From positions 1 to 21,356 of the IMG/VR virus record IMGVR_UViG_3300025910_000040: 21,356 nt of DNA. One strand, written 5' to 3'. The position numbers and the translations under genes were made by a program. This DNA comes from a virus. Shown piece by piece: positions 566-14,737 of this stretch; the stretch's first letter is position 1, and every line of letters begins with the position of its first letter. The notes beneath the pieces were generated by a model that was not told where the DNA came from, did not search any database, and was given only the letters and a program-made list of their open reading frames with translations.

Positions 566-589
566 CTAATTGGTTGAAAATTTCATAAC

Positions 590-669
590 AAAGAAAAAAT
601 CTTGACGCTCTGCTTAATCTGTTGCAGTATCAACAACAGAGCAGGGGATACACGTCAAGATTTTTCTTT
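590..669 (-). terminator. Long compound hairpin with leftward T-run; terminator or attenuator
   Basis: The arms at 590-607 and 653-669 are complementary over 17 bp with one bulged A. Inside them, CTCTG (608-612) pairs with CAGAG (637-641) and TGTTG (620-624) pairs with CAACA (631-635). Read leftward, the stem runs into a T-rich stretch (TTTTTTCTTT), as in an intrinsic terminator. It lies 41 bp before the start of the 59-aa leftward gene, so it could stop read-through or act as a leader attenuator. Both arms also carry TTGACG, which resembles a -35 box, but no matching -10 was found. Confidence 0.55.
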
Positions 670-686
670 TATCATGAATTTATAAA

Positions 687-724
687 AATGCAGCAGCGTC
701 TTTTATTATCCACGCTGCTGCATT
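687..724. terminator. Perfect 13-bp stem-loop, probable bidirectional terminator
   Basis: AATGCAGCAGCGT (687-699) and ACGCTGCTGCATT (712-724) are perfect inverted repeats with a 12-nt loop. Rightward, a seven-T run follows at 730-736. Leftward, the stem merges into a five-T run. It lies downstream of the leftward promoter at 1057-1084 and could end that transcript. Confidence 0.65.
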
Positions 725-1047
725 ACTAATTTTTTTGGTCGAATGTATGTCTCAAAGATAAGTAATCATCTATCGCTTCGCCTTTCATCGTATTTGCTCA
801 TTCACTATACAAGCTAACTGCATGAGTAGGGGATAGTAGAAGCATGGTCAAGCTATATTGACATTACTTCTCTTGATCTACTTATCTCACTCTCTATACT
901 TTTAGCAGCTTGCATCTTTGCTTTTTTTACTCGCATTACCTTTGTTCAAGTCATCTGTCAACTGGCTTGGAGACTATGTTTATCTTTGTCTCTAAAGTGA
1001 TGTCAATCTTTGCTGCTTCATTTCTATTGAGTTTGTCATCCCCGCTC
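725..1047 (-). other. Gene-free stretch; possible leftward small RNA
   Basis: No open frame of convincing length lies here on either strand. The leftward strand is transcribed from the promoter at 1057-1084 and could end at the 687-724 hairpin, giving an RNA of about 370 nt. It contains only micro-ORFs: 15 codons from ATG 1039, 27 codons (MRVKKAKMQ...) and 20 codons (MKGEAIDDYLS...), none with a well-placed ribosome binding site. Some leftward frames look protein-like in composition, for example ...NEAAKIDITLETK..., but they lack a start codon and are broken by stops. A decayed gene is therefore an alternative to a non-coding RNA. Confidence 0.35.
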
Positions 1048-1064
1048 GTTACAAGAATTGTAAC
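1048..1064. promoter_or_regulatory. Operator-like palindrome over a leftward -10 box
   Basis: GTTACAAGAATTGTAAC is a perfect 7-bp inverted repeat with a 3-bp spacer. It covers the -10 box (leftward TACAAT) and the expected start site of the promoter at 1057-1084, which is where a dimeric repressor would block transcription. No repressor gene is visible in the window. Confidence 0.6.
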
Positions 1065-1146: not shown

Positions 1147-1506
1147 TTATTTGTCGTTTAGCTCAATAATAATTAACTGTTTTTGCAACTTTTTTGCCAA
1201 TGATATTGAATGTCTAGTGCCTGTGCTTTTCCCCATTGGCAAAGCTATTACTAATTCACTTGCAGCGACAATACGCAAATTGCGCCTAAAGAATTTTGCT
1301 GGATACCCATCTTCTGGTTTAGGTGGGTGGCATACAAATGTTATCCCCTGCTCAATTGCGTATTTATATGCAAGACTATCAACACCTAAAGCGCCACCTG
1401 AAATAATCATATCTATATTTTGTTTTGATCTAATATTATTAATAATTATTTTGAATGTTTGATAATCTGAATAATTTCTACTGCCTACAATTGCTGCCTT
1501 ACACAT
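1147..1506 (-). CDS. SLOG-fold nucleotide-binding protein (DUF2493/YpsA-like)
   Basis: This 119-aa protein has the motif order of the SLOG superfamily (DUF2493/YspA/DprA-like Rossmann proteins): an N-terminal strand followed by VGSRNY (residues 7-12), the glycine-rich SGGALGVD (36-43), an RRN near 74-76, and a late GKSTGTRHS (92-100). Family members bind nucleotide-derived ligands; the ligand and role here are unknown. Such genes are common in phages, usually as lone small proteins. The start at ATG 1506-1504 has a weak GA-rich ribosome binding site (AAAGAG). It lies 160 bp downstream of the RepA-like gene in the same direction, separated by the TATCA-rich spacer. The fold is confident from motifs; the biological role is not. 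Confidence 0.8.
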   Translation of the reverse strand: MCKAAIVGSRNYSDYQTFKIIINNIRSKQNIDMIISGGALGVDSLAYKYAIEQGITFVCHPPKPEDGYPAKFFRRNLRIVAASELVIALPMGKSTGTRHSISLAKKLQKQLIIIELNDK

Positions 1507-1666: not shown

Positions 1667-2647
1667 TTAATTCATCTTCCTATCTTTAGATAACATATAA
1701 GGAATATTTCTGCCATTCTTTTCTCCTCTTGATAATATTCCTTTTTTGACTAGCTCCGATACCTCTCTTGATATAGCAGCTTCATCGTATCCTAATTTCT
1801 TTGCTAATATGCTGATATAACTTTGAGTACCATTATTACCAAAATAGGAAATAATTTTAGCTTGCACAGTCCCGGGTCTTACAATCTCTTGATTGATAGG
1901 CATCCATAATGTCCTATCATTATCAAATTGTAGATCAATGTGATCTATTTCTGTGTCTCTTGACGCAATCAGAAGTTTAGCAGCAGCTTTACCACGCTCT
2001 CCTACAAGACCCCAAACAGTGTCCGCCACCCCAGCTTTTGCACCACTGCCAGATAAATCATCAATTACATCGCCGCTAAATTGATTATTCTTTCTATGGT
2101 GATCTACAAAGAGGAATGAAAACTCTCCACCTCTTGTTAGCTCATATAAGGGAGATAGAAATTTCGTAGCCTCAACAGCATCATTGTTGTCACGTAATAA
2201 AACTGATTTGGCATAAGTATCAATAACACATAATATATATTTCTTTTTGCTCAATCGCTCTAGTAATTTCTCTAACCCACCTTTATTCAATCGGGGCCAC
2301 CGCTCTTCAATTTCAAATAAATCCAATCCTTTTGTTGCAGAGCTTACACCCATGTTGGCAATTCTCTTTTTTATTCTCCTTACATTATCTTCAAGAGATA
2401 TATACAAAACCCTGCCCGTCTGCATAACATCGTAACCAAGAAATGGGACACCTGTTGTAATAGATAACAAAAGCTGGACTGCCATAAATGATTTCCTCAT
2501 CTTTGGGCGCCCAGCTAAAAACGTGAACCCTTGCGGTAATATCTCTTTGACTAACCATTGAACATCGGGCATATCTGTTTCGGTGATCTGTTTTACTGTC
2601 CACGACGTCCTTCTGTCATTATGTAAATTTGTTTGCTTTGTTGACAT
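1667..2647 (-). CDS. RepA-like RecA-fold ATPase/helicase with C-terminal winged helix
   Basis: This 326-aa protein has the motifs of RepA/AAA_25-type hexameric ATPases. Walker A is AGRPKMRKS (residues 45-53), SLEDN is at 84-88, the Walker B strand is ILCVIDTYA (138-146), DHH at 182-184 fits a sensor-like motif, and SGSG is at 199-202. Residues about 261-310 look like a winged helix. The family unwinds or loads DNA in phage and plasmid replication. I chose ATG 2647 because AGGAGT lies 7 nt before it; an upstream ATG at 2716 would place the start inside the hairpin leader. A promoter at 2833-2860 and a terminator-like leader precede it. The AT-rich repeat spacer lies downstream. The ATPase call is secure; acting as the sole initiator is uncertain. 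Confidence 0.85.
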   Translation of the reverse strand: MSTKQTNLHNDRRTSWTVKQITETDMPDVQWLVKEILPQGFTFLAGRPKMRKSFMAVQLLLSITTGVPFLGYDVMQTGRVLYISLEDNVRRIKKRIANMGVSSATKGLDLFEIEERWPRLNKGGLEKLLERLSKKKYILCVIDTYAKSVLLRDNNDAVEATKFLSPLYELTRGGEFSFLFVDHHRKNNQFSGDVIDDLSGSGAKAGVADTVWGLVGERGKAAAKLLIASRDTEIDHIDLQFDNDRTLWMPINQEIVRPGTVQAKIISYFGNNGTQSYISILAKKLGYDEAAISREVSELVKKGILSRGEKNGRNIPYMLSKDRKMN

Positions 2648-2675
2648 TATCAATACTCCTATACTGAAATAAAAA

Positions 2676-2810
2676 AACTCATTTCTTTTAATGTATCTCT
2701 GTCTCTGTTTCAGCATGGCAGTCCACGAATAGGTATGGGTTGCTTCAACTTTGCCAGAGACACATTAAAAGCAATGAGTTCGGTAAAGCCTATTCTTTAT
2801 TCTGCTGCCA
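2676..2810 (-). promoter_or_regulatory. Structured leader of the RepA-like gene: attenuator or pseudoknot
   Basis: The arms 2676-2701 and 2755-2780 are complementary over 26 bp with two mismatches. Read leftward, the second arm is followed at once by seven T, as in an intrinsic terminator, 29 nt before the start codon. Two loop segments can pair with leader sequence outside the stem: TGGCAG (2716-2721) with CTGCCA (2805-2810), and GAATAGG (2727-2733) with CCTATTC (2789-2795). The pairings are mutually nested and cross the main stem, so the RNA could form an H-type pseudoknot or switch between two folds. This is the layout expected of an attenuator controlling replication-protein synthesis. 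Regulation itself is inferred. Confidence 0.6.
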
Positions 2811-2832
2811 CACAGATTAAATTGTTGTCTTT

Positions 2833-2860
2833 ATTATATGCACTTCAATCATTTTGTAAA
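2833..2860 (-). promoter_or_regulatory. Leftward promoter of the RepA-like gene
   Basis: Read leftward: TTTACA (2860-2855), a 16-bp spacer, then a perfect TATAAT (2838-2833). The expected start near 2826 gives a leader of about 180 nt that includes the whole hairpin element. Confidence 0.7.
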
Positions 2861-2956: not shown

Positions 2957-3181
2957 ATGATTGATCCTGTTGTCCATGCTGCTTTGGTTGTGTTGGCTGC
3001 CGCATTTGTGAAATGGTTGGCAAACTATTTGGGTATCAGCTTGACAGAAGATACTTATACTCAAATTGCTGGAGTGATTGTTGCATACATTCTTTCACTC
3101 TTTGGCTACTCTCTTTGGGTATATGCAACTGCCAAAACAAAGCTTGCCAATTTCAGAACTTACAAACCACTATTCACCTAA
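2957..3181 (+). CDS. Small two-TM membrane protein, holin-like
   Basis: This 74-aa protein has two hydrophobic segments, about residues 5-24 (VVHAALVVLAAAFVKW) and 36-56 (IAGVIVAYILSLFGY). A short polar turn (LTEDTYT) separates them, and the tail is basic. The size and layout match class II holins and other small phage membrane proteins. The ATG at 2957 is preferred to the TTG at 2951 because AGGAG lies 7 nt before it. It is the first gene after the palindromic site and promoter region. It is not adjacent to an identifiable endolysin, so the lysis role is an inference from topology only. Confidence 0.65.
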   Translation: MIDPVVHAALVVLAAAFVKWLANYLGISLTEDTYTQIAGVIVAYILSLFGYSLWVYATAKTKLANFRTYKPLFT

Positions 3182-4265: not shown

Positions 4266-4841
4266 ATGGCAACAAAGAAGTCAAAGAATAAAGCAGCAGA
4301 AGATTTCTTAAATGATAAATCTTCTGATTTACTATTAAGGCATGAGGCGTTTATAGAAGAGTATTTGATCTGCATGAATGGTACATTGGCATACCAAACA
4401 ACCCATCCAGATGTTGGCTATGATACTGCTTCCGTCAATGCTTCTAAATTACTAAGAAACACTAAGATAAAAGCAGAGCTAGAGCGGAGATTTGGGGAAG
4501 AAGTAATGACAAAAAAAGAAGTGTTAAAGCGTTTGCGGGATCAAGCTAATGCTACACTTCACGCCTTTGTAAAAGTGGACGATGAAGGTCATATATATTT
4601 CAACTTCAAAGATAAAGAAGCAAAAAGAAATTTTCATTTAATCAAGAAAGTGAAACACAGAAAGAATGAAACTTATAACGAGAGAAGTGGAGAAGCATCA
4701 GAGGAACATTGGGTGGAAGTTGAATTGCATGACCCACAAAGAGCTTTAGAGTTGATAGGTAAATATCACGCTCTATTTACTGACAAGACAGAGAGTAATG
4801 AAAAGAAAACTATTAGAGTGACAATCAAGAAGGAAGAATAA
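4266..4841 (+). CDS. terS: Terminase small subunit
   Basis: This 191-aa protein matches the Terminase_2 (PBSX/SPP1 G1P) pattern. After a Lys-rich start, residues about 24-75 form the DNA-binding helix bundle, with the family-like segment FIEEYLICMNGTLAYQTTHP followed by SVNASKLLRNTKIKAEL. A coiled region and a charged C-terminus (DPQRALELIGKYHALF) follow. The family recognises the packaging site and regulates the large subunit. The next gene, the large subunit, starts directly after the stop codon, and the two are clearly co-translated. The family assignment rests on sequence pattern and position. The pac or cos site is not identified. Confidence 0.85.
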   Translation: MATKKSKNKAAEDFLNDKSSDLLLRHEAFIEEYLICMNGTLAYQTTHPDVGYDTASVNASKLLRNTKIKAELERRFGEEVMTKKEVLKRLRDQANATLHAFVKVDDEGHIYFNFKDKEAKRNFHLIKKVKHRKNETYNERSGEASEEHWVEVELHDPQRALELIGKYHALFTDKTESNEKKTIRVTIKKEE

Positions 4842-6134
4842 TTGTTAGATACCGATTTCATTATCACAGAACCAGATTACAGCATTGAGGTAGACCCTAT
4901 TATCTTCAATAATGTTTATTATGACTGGCTCTACGATATGAGCAGAATTCAAATATTTTATGGTGGAGCTTCATCGGGGAAAAGTGTATTTTTGTCTCAA
5001 AGAGTTGTGATTGATCTAATGAGTGGCGGGAGAAATTATTTAGTGTGTAGAGCAGTTGCAAAGACAATTAGACGCTCTGTATTCAATGAAATCAAAAGAA
5101 GGATTAGCGAGTGGGGGGTTAGTGAAATGTTCAATATAAATAATACTGAATTTACCATAACTTGTATAAATGGCTATCAAGCTTTCTTTGTGGGTTTAGA
5201 TGATGTCGAAAAGATTAAATCTATTGTCCCCGAAATAGGCGTTATTACTGACATATGGGTGGAAGAAGCAACAGAGGTACAAGATAATAAAGTATTTAAA
5301 TCGCTCATGCGAAGGCAGCGGGGTGGTGATAGTAATACACCCAAACGCTTTACAATCAGTTTCAATCCTATCTTACAAGACCATCAGATATATACTAATT
5401 ATTTTGCGCCTATCGCGTGGGCAGAAGATCAAACAGAATACCATAGTAATGAATTGTCTATCTTACGGACTTGGTTTGAGCATAATAAATTTTTGACTGA
5501 TGCAGACAAACATGATTTGACAAGTGAACAGGATAAATATTTCAGTGACGTGTATACCTGGGGCAAGTTTGGCGTGTTAGGTAATGTGATCTTCAAGAAT
5601 TGGGTAATAGAAGATTTATCACAAATGAGAAATCAATTTACAAATAAGCGTCATGGATTGGACTTTGGTTTTGCCAGTGACCCCGCTGCTGCTGCTTCAT
5701 GGCATTTTGATAAGAAGAAAAAAGAGATTTATATATTTGAAGAGTTTTATGAGCGTGAATTAACAAATGATGAATTGGCAACAGAGTTGTTAAAGATGTT
5801 TGGCAAAGAATTAGTGAAATGTGATAGCAGTGAACCAAAAAGCATCAAAGAATTGCGTAATGCTGGCGTCAATGCAGAAGGGGCGAGAAAAGGTCCTGAT
5901 AGTGTCAATTTTGGTATTCAATGGTTGCAAGGCTGCAAATTGCATGTTGATAAATCGTGCATCAACTTTCAAAATGAATTGAGACAGTATAAATGGAAAG
6001 AAGGGGTGGATGGAAAGCCAGTATCACCACCTAAACCTGTTGATGCTAAAAATCATCTGATAGATCAATTGAGATATGGTAGTGAAGATGATATGTTAGA
6101 AACACCATCACGCGGTAGAAGTTATAAAGGATAA
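4842..6134 (+). CDS. terL: Terminase large subunit (PBSX family)
   Basis: This 430-aa packaging ATPase/nuclease has Walker A GGASSGKS (residues 41-48), Walker B with catalytic acid ITDIWVEEATE (135-145), and the coupling motif SFNP (173-176). The C-terminal RNase H-like nuclease has acids at D274 and D280 (GLDFGFASD), D328 (VKCDSSEPKS) and D408 (HLIDQLRYG). It pumps DNA into the procapsid through the portal and cuts concatemers. The start codon is an unusual TTG one base after the terS stop codon, with AAGGAAG upstream. The next in-frame ATG would cut into the region just before Walker A. All key residues are present, so the protein should be active. Confidence 0.95.
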   Translation: MLDTDFIITEPDYSIEVDPIIFNNVYYDWLYDMSRIQIFYGGASSGKSVFLSQRVVIDLMSGGRNYLVCRAVAKTIRRSVFNEIKRRISEWGVSEMFNINNTEFTITCINGYQAFFVGLDDVEKIKSIVPEIGVITDIWVEEATEVQDNKVFKSLMRRQRGGDSNTPKRFTISFNPILQDHQIYTNYFAPIAWAEDQTEYHSNELSILRTWFEHNKFLTDADKHDLTSEQDKYFSDVYTWGKFGVLGNVIFKNWVIEDLSQMRNQFTNKRHGLDFGFASDPAAAASWHFDKKKKEIYIFEEFYERELTNDELATELLKMFGKELVKCDSSEPKSIKELRNAGVNAEGARKGPDSVNFGIQWLQGCKLHVDKSCINFQNELRQYKWKEGVDGKPVSPPKPVDAKNHLIDQLRYGSEDDMLETPSRGRSYKG

Positions 6135-6139
6135 TGATA

Positions 6140-6358
6140 ATGGATGAAGTTGTTCTGATTGTGCCAGAAAATAAAAAATATTTAGTTTTTGAACATCCAG
6201 AAATATTTGGAGATATTTTGCATGGTATCCGTTTCCCTATTTCAAATAATAAGGGAGATTGGGTTTACAAGCTTCCATCATATGTTGCTGCACATCTTTT
6301 TGACGAGATTGATAAATTAGATAGAAACAACACTACTAGGATAATAATCAATGCCTAA
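6140..6358 (+). CDS. Hypothetical protein between terminase and portal (72 aa)
   Basis: The protein is small, acidic to neutral and soluble, and I do not recognise it. It begins MDEVVLIVPENKKYLVFEHP and has a predicted alpha/beta mix with no membrane segment. The ATG at 6140 is preferred because AAAGG lies 9 nt upstream. An ATG at 6134 overlaps the terL stop but is only 3 nt from that site. Its 3' end overlaps the portal start by 8 nt, so it is translated within the packaging operon. A small protein between terL and portal is common in siphoviruses and usually has no known function. Confidence 0.65.
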   Translation: MDEVVLIVPENKKYLVFEHPEIFGDILHGIRFPISNNKGDWVYKLPSYVAAHLFDEIDKLDRNNTTRIIINA

Positions 6359-7748
6359 TATTACAAATCCACACGTGAAATTAGCCTTTGAAACAATCAA
6401 GGCGAAGAAGCCTTTATATGATGAGTTGTATAAATACTATACTGGCTTCCACCCGTTGCGCTATTCGACCAATAAACTCAAAAAAGTATTCGAGGCGATC
6501 AATGTTTATTTTAGTGAGAATTGGTTAGGCGTGATTGTTGATAGTGTTATTGATAGATTGGTATTAAAAGGTTTCGATATATCAGATAATACAGCAGCTA
6601 AGACAAAGCTGGATGATATGTGGCGAGATCATAATATGATGCTGATTGCAGAAGATGTCCACGAGGCAGTTACTATCACGAATGAAGCATTTGTTATTGC
6701 TATGAAAATTGAAGATGAAGATACTGGGGCAGAGTTGCTGGAAGTGTTTCACAATGACCCTAGAATGTGTCATGTGTTTTACGACGCCAATCAACCTGAT
6801 AAAAAAGAATTTGCAGCTAAGTTATGGCAGAGTAATGATGGTTACATTCATCTTACACTTTATTACAAAGATAGATTTGAGCATTATAGAAGTTTGACAG
6901 CAACAAAGCCAGGAGTTTCAATCTCATCATATAAACAATTACAGCCAGACCCAGATGGAGATATTGAAGATAATCCCTTTGATACTATTCCAGTATTTCA
7001 TTGGGTGACATCAAAGACAACTAAGAAAAGAGATATGGGTCCATCTGAAATATCTATGCAGGATGCAATTAATAAACTCCTATCAGATATGATGGTCAGT
7101 AGCGAGTTTAATTCTTATGTTCAAAGAGTGATTATCTCTAAAGCAGACCCGGGGAATATGCCTAATGAACCTGGGGCAAATTGGTGGTTGCCTGCAAGCG
7201 ATGAAGGGCAACAAACAACAGTTACAGAATTAGGTGGCAGAGTGCTTGATGGTTTTCTTAATGCTATTGATAAACTAGCAACATCATTGGCAATCATTTC
7301 GAGAACACCTAAACATTATTTTTTTGCACAAACTGGCGACCCATCGGGAGAAGCTCTCATAGCAATGGAGGCGCCGCTCAATAAAAAAGTAAAAAAGAGA
7401 CAAGGTAGATATGCAATATCATGGCAGGATTTAGCACAGTTTTTATTAGAGCTTGAAGATATAAAGATTGATAAAAAGCAGATTGTCCCCATGTGGGAGC
7501 CTGCTGAAACAGTTCAGCCACAAACGTCTGCAACGATTACTAAAACACAAGTAGACAGTGGCGTACCACTAAAAACATCCTTACGCTGGCAAGGTAAAAC
7601 CGCTGATGAAATCAAGCAGCTTGAGGAAGATCAAAAAGAAGAGCAGACAAAAAGAACTGGATTAGCACAAGACGCATTAGATCAATTACGCGCGGAAGAT
7701 GCTAGAAACAATGCTAATTCAACAGGTGGCACAAATGTACAGGCATAG
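6351..7748 (+). CDS. Portal protein (SPP1 gp6-like)
   Basis: This 465-aa protein resembles SPP1 gp6-type portals (Phage_prot_Gp6). It has an N-terminal helical region with YKYYTGFHPLRY (residues 28-39), a wing/stem region, and the characteristic C-terminal segment with TGDPSGEALIAMEAPLNKK (about 326-344), followed by a long helix. The C-terminus is Gln/Glu/Asn-rich. The dodecameric portal forms the DNA channel and the docking site for terminase and head connectors. Its position right after terL fits. The start overlaps the upstream gene by 8 nt. The length is normal for the family. Confidence 0.9.
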   Translation: MPNITNPHVKLAFETIKAKKPLYDELYKYYTGFHPLRYSTNKLKKVFEAINVYFSENWLGVIVDSVIDRLVLKGFDISDNTAAKTKLDDMWRDHNMMLIAEDVHEAVTITNEAFVIAMKIEDEDTGAELLEVFHNDPRMCHVFYDANQPDKKEFAAKLWQSNDGYIHLTLYYKDRFEHYRSLTATKPGVSISSYKQLQPDPDGDIEDNPFDTIPVFHWVTSKTTKKRDMGPSEISMQDAINKLLSDMMVSSEFNSYVQRVIISKADPGNMPNEPGANWWLPASDEGQQTTVTELGGRVLDGFLNAIDKLATSLAIISRTPKHYFFAQTGDPSGEALIAMEAPLNKKVKKRQGRYAISWQDLAQFLLELEDIKIDKKQIVPMWEPAETVQPQTSATITKTQVDSGVPLKTSLRWQGKTADEIKQLEEDQKEEQTKRTGLAQDALDQLRAEDARNNANSTGGTNVQA

Positions 7749-11843: not shown

Positions 11844-12833
11844 ATGACCGTATTCAATTCAAATATCTCCCGGGAAGATGCTAGTGCATTAATCCCAGAA
11901 GATGCGTCAAAAGAAATCCTGCAAACTATTGCAGAAGGTTCAAGCGTGTTGCGTCTATCAAGGCGTTTGCCCAATATGGCGCGTGGACAACGGCGGCTCC
12001 CTGTTCTTTCTGCATTACCTCAAGCCTATTTCGTAGGTGAGGCCGGCAGAAGTCCCCAAACATTTACAGAAGTAAAGCAGACCACCGAAGCCGCATGGGC
12101 AAACAAATATCTTAATGCGGAAGAAATTGCCTGTGTTGTACCTATCCCTGAAAACGTTTTGGAAGATGCTGATTTTGATATTTGGGGAGAGATGCGTCCC
12201 CAAATCGTAGCCAGCATTGGTGCAGTAATTGACACCGCCATTTTGTTTGGTACTTCTGATGTAGATGTACCGCGCAACTGGCCTGATGGTTTGTTAGTTG
12301 CCATGCCTGCTGCTCATATTGTCTCTGAAACATTTGGCAATGATCTGTATGACGCCATTATGGGCGAAGGTGGCGTATTATCATATGTTGAAGAAGATGG
12401 CTATTTAGTTAATGGTCATCTTTCTGCTCTTACGATGCGTTCTAAATTGCGTGGTTTGCGTGATGGCGGGACGGGATTGCCTCTGTTCGTTCAGAACATG
12501 CAGAACGCTGTACCTTATACACTTGATGGGCAGCGTTTGGAATTCCCACTCAACGGCGCCATGGACGACTCACAAGCTCTACTTGTCTCTGGTGATTTCA
12601 ATCAACTTGTATACAGTATCCGTAAGGACATCACCTACAAAGTATTGACTGAAGGAGTTATCACCGATAACGCCACTCCTCGCGCCATCATCCACAACCT
12701 GGGGCAGGACGATATGATTGCTCTGCGTGTTACTTTTCGCATGGCGTGGCAGTTGCCTAATCCTATCAATCGCGTTAACCAGACAGAGGCAACACGCTTC
12801 CCCTTTGCTGCTCTTGCACCTTCTGGGAGCTAG
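11844..12833 (+). CDS. Major capsid protein, HK97 fold
   Basis: This 329-aa protein has the usual HK97-type pattern: an N-terminal segment (ISREDASALIPEDASKEIL, residues 8-26) like the start of phage capsid family members, an E-loop region with GEAGRSPQTFTEVKQ (about 65-79), and a spine and A-domain further on (VPIPENVLEDADFDIW, about 99-114). A strong ribosome binding site (TAAGGAG) precedes the ATG. Codons are clearly more G+C and C-ending than in the surrounding genes, as expected for the most abundant virion protein. No N-terminal delta domain is present, consistent with the separate scaffold gene. Confidence 0.9.
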   Translation: MTVFNSNISREDASALIPEDASKEILQTIAEGSSVLRLSRRLPNMARGQRRLPVLSALPQAYFVGEAGRSPQTFTEVKQTTEAAWANKYLNAEEIACVVPIPENVLEDADFDIWGEMRPQIVASIGAVIDTAILFGTSDVDVPRNWPDGLLVAMPAAHIVSETFGNDLYDAIMGEGGVLSYVEEDGYLVNGHLSALTMRSKLRGLRDGGTGLPLFVQNMQNAVPYTLDGQRLEFPLNGAMDDSQALLVSGDFNQLVYSIRKDITYKVLTEGVITDNATPRAIIHNLGQDDMIALRVTFRMAWQLPNPINRVNQTEATRFPFAALAPSGS

Positions 12834-12837
12834 CTTA

Positions 12838-14013
12838 ATGTTATACGTCAATCCCATTATCAATGAAGATACCAGCATTGATCTATACGCTGGCAATGAT
12901 AGAAGTTATAGAGAACTTCTGCCATTGTGGGATGCGTTAGGCGAGAGGCGAGGAACATTCTTTGCCTCTCGTCTAGTACATCAGAATGGTGCAGCTATTC
13001 AATACACAGATAATGGCATTGATAGTGATAGTCCTATTGTCATTTCAAACTATAAAGATTTAAATGACATATTTATCGCCTGTAAAGAACGTCCATTTAT
13101 CATGTTCGAGAATGAGCATAATTCAGAAACACGTGGATTATTAAATATTGTTTCTTTGTTTTTATGCAAAGACCAAAAGATGTCAAAGCTACGCAAAGCG
13201 TATTCCAAAAATGTATCTTTGTTTGATACCGCTCAATCTGCTGCTCGTCTAATCTTTGAATTCTGCAAAGGCAAAGAGCCTGAATATATTACAGAAGTTA
13301 ATGGCAAGAGTGTTGGAATTATTTATATGGTTTGGGGAGACAAAGCTTTACAAGCTGCCAAAAGATCAATAGCGACATTGAAGCAATTAGGTTATTGTTA
13401 CCCTGCTGCATTTATAGGGCAATGGAAACAAAATGAAAATTGGACAAAGGGACATGGCGTTAATGTTATTTGTAGCATTGACCCGTTTGATAAAACAAAG
13501 CAACGTGGATTTCAATTTAGAGCAGGTAGAATAAAGCCATTATTGTATGAGTTGTCCCCCTTTGATTACACTTTATACCTTGATGCTGATACATCTTTTT
13601 TACAACCTATCCAAAGCTCATTTGAGTTACTAAATGATTTTGATCTGATTGTCACTGATGAAAAATTATCACTAGCACAGTTATATAATAAAAAATTAGC
13701 TGGCTGGGAATTGAATATGTTGGAACGCGATAGCACAATTATAGAACTTAATGGAGATGATGGCCAACCTTTTGTTAATAGCGGTGTGTTTTTCTTTCGC
13801 AAGAATAATATAACTAGGAAATTATTTGCTGATTGGTCTAAAGAGTGGTTGAGATTTCAAGAATGGGATGAGCAATTGGCACTCATGCGTGCAATATATA
13901 AGAATGACGCAATTGTTAAACACCTGCCAGTGGAGTGGAACTCTCCCAGCTTGAACGAGAAAGCAATTATTTTCCATAATTATGGGCGTGGGGAAGTGAG
14001 AATAAATGTCTAA
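12838..14013 (+). CDS. Glycosyltransferase-like protein (GT-A fold with DAD motif)
   Basis: This 391-aa protein has two parts. Residues 1-150 are a region I do not recognise. From about residue 158 there is a GT-A nucleotide-sugar transferase-like domain: SVGIIYMVWGDKALQAAKRS (158-177), the metal-binding DAD at 249-251 in YTLYLDADTSFLQ, FVNSGVFFF (312-320), WDEQLALMRA (343-352) and a late HNYGRG (380-385). This resembles GT8/GT77-like enzymes. I chose ATG 12838, four bases after the capsid stop codon, with GGAG 8 nt upstream. The next gene overlaps it by 8 nt. It probably acts with the next two genes to decorate a virion or host component. Substrate unknown. Confidence 0.75.
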   Translation: MLYVNPIINEDTSIDLYAGNDRSYRELLPLWDALGERRGTFFASRLVHQNGAAIQYTDNGIDSDSPIVISNYKDLNDIFIACKERPFIMFENEHNSETRGLLNIVSLFLCKDQKMSKLRKAYSKNVSLFDTAQSAARLIFEFCKGKEPEYITEVNGKSVGIIYMVWGDKALQAAKRSIATLKQLGYCYPAAFIGQWKQNENWTKGHGVNVICSIDPFDKTKQRGFQFRAGRIKPLLYELSPFDYTLYLDADTSFLQPIQSSFELLNDFDLIVTDEKLSLAQLYNKKLAGWELNMLERDSTIIELNGDDGQPFVNSGVFFFRKNNITRKLFADWSKEWLRFQEWDEQLALMRAIYKNDAIVKHLPVEWNSPSLNEKAIIFHNYGRGEVRINV

Positions 14014-14737
14014 AACTGCTTTGATAATTGTTGGTCAACCTCGTACATTTGAATTCTGTTTCCCGTCACTAAAAAAACATATTTTAGACGTGTATCATCC
14101 TGATATTTTTATTTGCACCGACGATCAAAAAGAAAGAATAGCAGAGCTATATAAACCTATTGCTCTTGACGTGTTGACGCAGGAAGAGATATTTGATTAT
14201 GCCATTCAATTGCGCGATGCCATCCCAAGCGTGATGCCTACTAATGATTTATCAGTTGCGTGGAAACTCAATCGTGCAATGACTAGAAAAGCAGAGCATG
14301 AATTGGTGGAAGGTTTTATTTATGATACTGTGATTGTTACCAGATTTGATGTGAAATTTAGAAATGTGCCATTGATAAAAGCAAAGCAAAATACTTTTCA
14401 TGTTCCCTTGATTGGTGGTTATTGGGATACGCCAGAAGATACTCCTGGTATTCACTGGGGTGGGTACTCTGCTCATCTGTGCTGGGGCTCATCTGATGTT
14501 ATGAACAAAATTGCCAATATCTATTTTGATGCTGCTGATTATCTAACACTTGCAACAAACGCAACAGAAAAATTTGGTTGGGCGCCCGAGCATGTTCTAA
14601 AATACTTTTGTGATGTAAATGGCATACAAGCATTTTTTGAAGATATTGAAATGATGTTAATCCGAGGCACATCCATCCATCCTATGTCATTTCACAATCA
14701 CAAACTTTCTGAATATCCAGAGTATTTATATGATTGA
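14006..14737 (+). CDS. Second glycosyltransferase-like protein
   Basis: This 243-aa protein starts with a strand followed by GQPRTF (residues 10-15), a signature seen in a group of uncharacterised glycosyltransferase-like proteins. It then has VTRFDVKF (111-118), where an aspartate lies in a position comparable to a DxD-like metal site, a Trp/Gly-rich stretch (WGGYSAHLCWGSSD, 151-164) and PEHVLKYF (194-201), similar to the acceptor-side motif of such proteins. It overlaps both neighbours by 8 nt, so all three genes of this insert are translated together. The enzyme class is a moderate-confidence inference; the sugar and acceptor are unknown. Confidence 0.6.
   Translation: MSKTALIIVGQPRTFEFCFPSLKKHILDVYHPDIFICTDDQKERIAELYKPIALDVLTQEEIFDYAIQLRDAIPSVMPTNDLSVAWKLNRAMTRKAEHELVEGFIYDTVIVTRFDVKFRNVPLIKAKQNTFHVPLIGGYWDTPEDTPGIHWGGYSAHLCWGSSDVMNKIANIYFDAADYLTLATNATEKFGWAPEHVLKYFCDVNGIQAFFEDIEMMLIRGTSIHPMSFHNHKLSEYPEYLYD

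Follow-up and report, generated by a model that had tools for sequence, protein, structure and literature searches.

In the rep leaders of IncB and IncI-alpha plasmids, a 5' hairpin loop and a distant strand of the replication gene leader pair with each other, and the pseudoknots so formed regulate translation close to the rep start. The attenuators of plasmids pT181 and pIP501 also lie in the leader of a replication gene and combine a 5' hairpin with competing antiterminator and terminator structures (PMC4878617, PMC4981023). The put RNA of phage HK022, located immediately 3' of an early promoter, is about 70 nt long, consists of two stem-loops of conserved sequence, binds RNA polymerase, influences termination and has no terminator of its own (PMC9378689). 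In the fluoride and preQ1 riboswitches, a pseudoknot aptamer forms ahead of the terminator hairpin, with which it competes while the RNA is being transcribed (PMC11077080, PMC3905878). The leader RNA described here belongs to the leftward operon of a phage, and its fold is kept, with the bases mostly replaced, in two distant relatives.

The DNA analyzed (the window) is a virus record of 21,356 bp whose terminase, portal and head genes lie to the right; in the head gene region, at 12718–14737, the ORF list includes two sugar-modifying or glycosyltransferase-like ORFs. The leftward operon begins with the gene for an AAA_25 (RepA-type) replication ATPase (1667–2647, minus strand; PF13481, E = 1.4e-23; PHROGs primase/helicase families), and the leader lies between this gene and a divergent small membrane-type gene. 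As an earlier note on this DNA had claimed, a good leftward promoter is present, TTTACA-16-TATAAT at 2860–2833 on the minus strand, with 11 of 12 consensus matches and joint best among 31 sites in 6 kb; promoters throughout were scored by consensus scan only. From the predicted start near 2826 to the start codon of the ATPase gene (ATG at 2647) the leader measures about 178 nt, in agreement with the 180 nt or so given in that note. The Shine-Dalgarno sequence of the ATPase gene, AGGAG (2656–2660, minus strand), is outside the element.

Reading the minus strand from 5' to 3', the leader is composed of a hairpin P1, the 5' strand of helix P2, the 5' arm of stem P3, the 3' strands of P2 and then of K, the 3' arm of P3 and a U-tract, an anatomy in which the outer crossing helix is formed with the loop of a small 5' hairpin. 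That hairpin, P1 (UCUG-UGUGGCAG-CAGA, 2801–2816), has 4 bp and an 8-nt loop, seven bases of which (2811–2805) form the 5' strand of crossing helix K and pair with its 3' strand, CUGCCAU (2715–2721), in the P3 loop. The 5' strand of P2, GAAUAGG (2789–2795), pairs with CCUAUUC (2727–2733), also inside that loop. P3, the putative terminator stem, was recognized from an inverted repeat (arms 2676–2715 and 2741–2780) and from folding; it has 25–26 bp and a 53-nt loop, its arms at 2779–2755 and 2701–2677 pairing with one mismatch and one G-U pair in 25 bp, and it is directly followed by a U7 tract (2671–2677). P3 as a stem is far beyond chance. The 26-bp stem directly before seven T of the earlier note (T7 at 2677–2671) is real, and so are the two complementarities by which loop segments were said to cross the stem, TGGCAG/CTGCCA (7 bp if a G-U pair is added) and GAATAGG/CCTATTC. 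In the window by itself the crossing pairing (−24.0 kcal/mol) is modestly unlikely by chance and only suggestive, with 35 of 2000 double shuffles equaling it. Folding of the minus-strand RNA gives an MFE of −54.1 kcal/mol (z = −4.9), nearly equaled by the plus-strand RNA (−48.0 kcal/mol, z = −4.7), so that folding energy alone cannot separate the strands; the G-U pairs within P3 are too few to count for a strand preference. No Rfam family exceeded its gathering cut-off in the window (the best sub-threshold matches had E above 2), and a DNA similarity search in phages returned no match.

A search with the ATPase led to two relatives, L002 (71% identical, on a 23-kb contig) and L003 (66% over the alignment, on a 43-kb contig); the genome collection scanned contained none. 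At the DNA level, nothing in the L002 record matches the window leader. In both relatives, equivalent leader anatomy occupies the interval between the matching divergent gene and the leftward operon, with a promoter of 16-bp spacer and 11 of 12 matches at the corresponding place. The leader of L002 contains the P1 hairpin CGGG-AAUUGGAG-CCCG (4612–4627), P2 formed by GAUGAGAUAA/UUAUCUCAUC, a 26-bp P3, the K strand UUCCAAU and U6; that of L003 has the P1 hairpin CUAC-UGUGGCAA-GUAG (3043–3058), P2 formed by GUCGAG/CUCGAC, a P3 with 15 perfect pairs above a weaker base, the K strand UUGCCGC and U7. The form of P1, a 4-bp stem with an 8-nt loop, is constant in the three leaders, all four stem pairs being altered on both sides, and the second crossing helix, P2, spans 6–10 bp. 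The spacings in the window, L002 and L003 are 5, 3 and 6 nt from P1 to P2, 9, 5 and 12 from P2 to P3, 21, 8 and 13 from P3 to the 3' strand of P2, and 14, 0 and 5 from K to the 3' arm of P3; the P3 loops measure 53, 30 and 37 nt, and the predicted start is about 150, 145 and 137 nt from the U-tract.

The crossing pairing reaches −25.8 kcal/mol in L002 and −26.9 kcal/mol in L003, where 4 and 0 of 2000 shuffles, respectively, are as good, so that with the relatives included the evidence for it is strong. A joint motif written from the shared features (P1, 8-nt loop, K and P2, with P3 added for the long-stem version) is present in each of the three leaders and in 10, 0 and 0 of 20,000 shuffles of the window, L002 and L003 leaders. 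Long stems with loops of 24–70 nt and a T5 tail number just five in the 474 kb of retrieved DNA, and among these five the strongest crossing pairing belongs to the leaders of the window and L002. In 592 kb of phage and plasmid DNA, the joint motif with a long P3 picks out only the three leaders and one artefact, a match in L045/L046 that was rejected as an array of inverted tandem repeats; this aside, the motif is absent from the distant ATPase relatives (25–30% identity, L035–L056) and from the phage and plasmid records L073–L079. Plain alignment of the three leaders fails, their sequences being too divergent, and the covariation count was therefore made on a hand alignment guided by structure. 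All 51 of the 51 cells in P1, K and P2 pair, a completeness that is partly built in because the structure guided the alignment; both partners have changed in 11 of the 17 pairs, compared with 4.3 in shuffles and at most one when the partner is slid one to three columns. The pairing of a hairpin loop outside itself, the defining property of an H-type pseudoknot, is thus seen both as complementarity and in these both-side changes. Independent weight comes from the 20,000-shuffle test of the joint motif and from K, which sits in one and the same register on the 8-nt loop, in a comparison that rests on three phages. Because the fold persists with almost no shared letters, a genuine switch acting on the gene cluster as a whole is probable.

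The covariation in relatives that the earlier note had named as a check of its proposal is found, in that equivalent anatomy is built from mostly different bases; conservation of the palindrome at the DNA level only, which the note regarded as incompatible with that proposal, is not, the palindrome sequence differing between the phages. Another reading is that the element acts as DNA, for example as a single-strand origin, cruciform or operator, rather than as RNA. The nearly equal folding of both strands and the iteron-like repeats nearby would suit such a role, but in every case the U-tract is found on the gene-sense side, with a good promoter of the same direction 5' of it, the arms are 30–53 nt apart and without sequence conservation, and wobble pairs in K are kept in the sense RNA; we consider a DNA-level element highly improbable. 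A 5'-UTR stability or processing element, in which P3 would be an RNase III substrate or a protector of the mRNA 5' end and the U-tract would not terminate, agrees with the 15–25 nearly perfect base pairs of P3 across the three leaders and with the further long stems that precede downstream genes in the same phages. It leaves unexplained the conserved crossing helices and the U6–7 directly after the stem in all three, and appears improbable.

The reading we favor, to which we give an even chance, is that of a cis-acting transcription attenuator gating the leftward (replication) operon. RNA polymerase would start near 2826 and make hairpin P1, and as the large loop emerges its P2 and K strands would pair with the RNA before the stem, enclosing the 5' arm of P3. 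As long as this crossing structure held, the 25–26 bp of P3 would be unable to wind fully, as more than two helical turns would have to be made around a strand in the loop closed by P2 and K, with the polymerase at the other end, and transcription would read through. If the crossing structure failed, or some signal were to open it, P3 would form and halt the polymerase at the U7 tract, with release of a transcript about 150 nt long. The promoter, the helices, the U-tract, the anatomy common to three phages and the early pairing of the crossing strands, ahead of the synthesis of the 3' arm, are computed features. In RNAs cut just before the 3' arm of P3, the favored fold of all three leaders contains at least one crossing helix, with best crossing-pair probabilities of 0.89, 0.92 and 1.00 in the window, L002 and L003; the second crossing helix is weaker (K at 0.09 in the window, P2 in an alternative register in L002, 0.42 in L003). 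Once the RNA extends about 12 nt into the 3' arm, the MFE, computed with an energy model for folds without pseudoknots, switches from the crossing helix to P3. Since the crossing strands can pair before the 3' arm exists, a terminator/antiterminator switch is plausible. It counts against the attenuator that the window RNA lacking its 3' arm shows no unusual stability (z = −1.3); the z values are −1.8 in L002 and −3.1 in L003.

The position of the element points the same way. The U-tract ends 20–35 nt before the first start codon in the three leaders and the Shine-Dalgarno sequence is outside the fold, which makes translation control by occlusion unlikely; with so short a gap, any operon transcript that begins at the mapped promoter has to pass the U-tract, and an attenuator is the simplest reading of this forced read-through. 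The three leaders have no consistent ORF for a leader peptide, which in ribosome-mediated attenuators has a Shine-Dalgarno sequence of its own and a conserved position. Against an attenuator stand the long loop and A-U-rich base of P3 and, in L003, weak pairing of the base about 5 nt ahead of the U-tract; P3 may on these grounds be a poor terminator. Moreover, classical antiterminators share bases with the terminator arms, whereas P2 and K have none in common with the arms of P3, and any competition would accordingly have to be topological; part of the 5' arm of P3 pairs locally elsewhere in the folds without the 3' arm in all three leaders. Alternatively, a complete pseudoknot may exist, in which P3 and the crossing helices are formed together.

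The interval from start to U-tract, 137–150 nt in all three phages despite differing loops, raises another alternative, namely that the product that matters is a terminated, pseudoknotted small RNA of about 150 nt acting in trans, the operon being served by leak-through. The strong promoter, the compact fold and the presence of at least one other predicted structured RNA in the same genomes are consistent with this. On the other hand, no complementary target of at least 12 nt was found elsewhere in the phages, pairing with the neighboring structured RNAs is nothing unusual, the sequence is hardly conserved and the element is always at the 5' end of the operon mRNA. We regard a trans-acting product, whether directed at host or phage RNA or serving as a decoy, as rather unlikely.

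A second, larger candidate structured RNA gene of about 370 nt is found at 682–1052 (minus strand) in the window, at 6282–6657 (plus) in L002 and probably at 5428–5800 (plus) in L003, with a good promoter of its own (TTGACA-16-TACAAT, 1084–1057) and a terminator hairpin. It aligns between the window and L002, with many identical blocks such as the hairpin-loop CAAAGAUAAACAUAG, and of 55 consensus pairs 17 have both bases replaced with the pairing kept. It matches no Rfam family at a relaxed threshold and no phage or plasmid DNA, and looks like an undescribed phage noncoding RNA; a match of its motif in L067 was discarded as a chance match in a coding region. Further long stems (about 15–30 bp) around variable inner domains occur upstream of the next leftward genes, at 575–681 (minus strand) in the window, about 6660–6930 in L002, and about 5810–5975 and 7491–7610 in L003. 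The genes behind them have GGAG Shine-Dalgarno sites, and three of the stems have the ends TTCATGA ... GTTATGAA in common; the stems are possibly RNase III sites or more attenuators.

The earlier note had linked the leader to plasmid-type copy control by antisense RNA. An antisense-controlled attenuator of the pT181/pIP501 type, setting the genome copy number, would account for attenuator anatomy before a replication ATPase, for a 5' hairpin with an exposed loop and for iteron-like repeats after the ATPase gene. The consensus scan, however, finds no promoter-like site on the plus strand of the window between 2236 and 3202, about 400 bp either side of the element, and no conserved one in L002 or L003, where plus-strand sites are weak and differently placed. 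In addition, the first gene of the operon is the ATPase in the window, a small ORF in L002 and a SLOG gene in L003, where some 840 bp and three ORFs separate the ATPase from the leader; the leader thus accompanies the operon rather than the rep gene. Antisense control of this kind, and with it membership in the plasmid attenuator class, is not supported, and we think it most improbable. What stands of the proposed switch or pseudoknot is a pseudoknot-capable leader with a predicted terminator that recurs in two relatives; the plasmid-type antisense link is not supported.

Two further features of the replication region were observed. In each of the three phages, repeats resembling TGTTGATA/TATCAACA directly follow the stop codon of the ATPase gene (about 1540–1690 in the window, 6030–6130 in L002, 5017–5124 in L003), partly arranged as inverted repeats, and are candidate replication origin iterons. 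A small SLOG/DprA-like protein (PF02481, PF10686) is encoded in the replication operon of the window (1147–1506, minus strand), L003 (3185–3541) and L058 (4445–4792), with 69% identity between the window and L003 and at differing operon positions.

In this probable regulatory RNA, three phages have retained the anatomy with the sequence largely replaced, so that ordinary sequence and Rfam searches miss it. It is possible, if at present doubtful, that the leader stands for a previously undescribed class of phage RNA, which may be called a topological attenuator, in which the antiterminator has no bases in common with the terminator but closes a loop round its 5' arm and blocks its winding; selection would then act on architecture and not on sequence, as the failure of homology searches would reflect. 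If the mechanism were true, the leader would be a naturally occurring case for asking whether topology, instead of base competition, lets a pseudoknot block a terminator, a question answerable with a short in vitro transcription template. Among described RNAs, the put RNA of HK022, the riboswitches and the ribosome-mediated attenuators were set aside, each failing a defining feature. As in put RNA, a structured RNA without a leader peptide lies just 3' of the promoter and has a predicted effect on termination, but the present leader differs in size and anatomy, ends in a stem and U-tract and is not conserved in sequence. A pseudoknot ahead of a predicted terminator recalls the fluoride and preQ1 riboswitches, which differ in having the conserved ligand-binding type of sequence that is absent here, together with any Rfam match. 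The pairing of a 5' hairpin loop with a distant strand in the leader is shared with the IncB/IncI-alpha leaders, although the Shine-Dalgarno sequence is here outside the fold. The leader resembles those of pT181 and pIP501 in its 5' hairpin, in the proposed competition between helices and in the expectation of a short terminated RNA; its stem and U-tract (U7 in the window, U6–7 in the relatives) are conserved and form a putative terminator. It departs from them in that no promoter for an antisense RNA was found and in that the controlled gene, in those plasmids the replication gene, is an ATPase directly behind the leader only in the window; and the helices proposed to compete here cross the 5' arm of the putative terminator instead of containing it.
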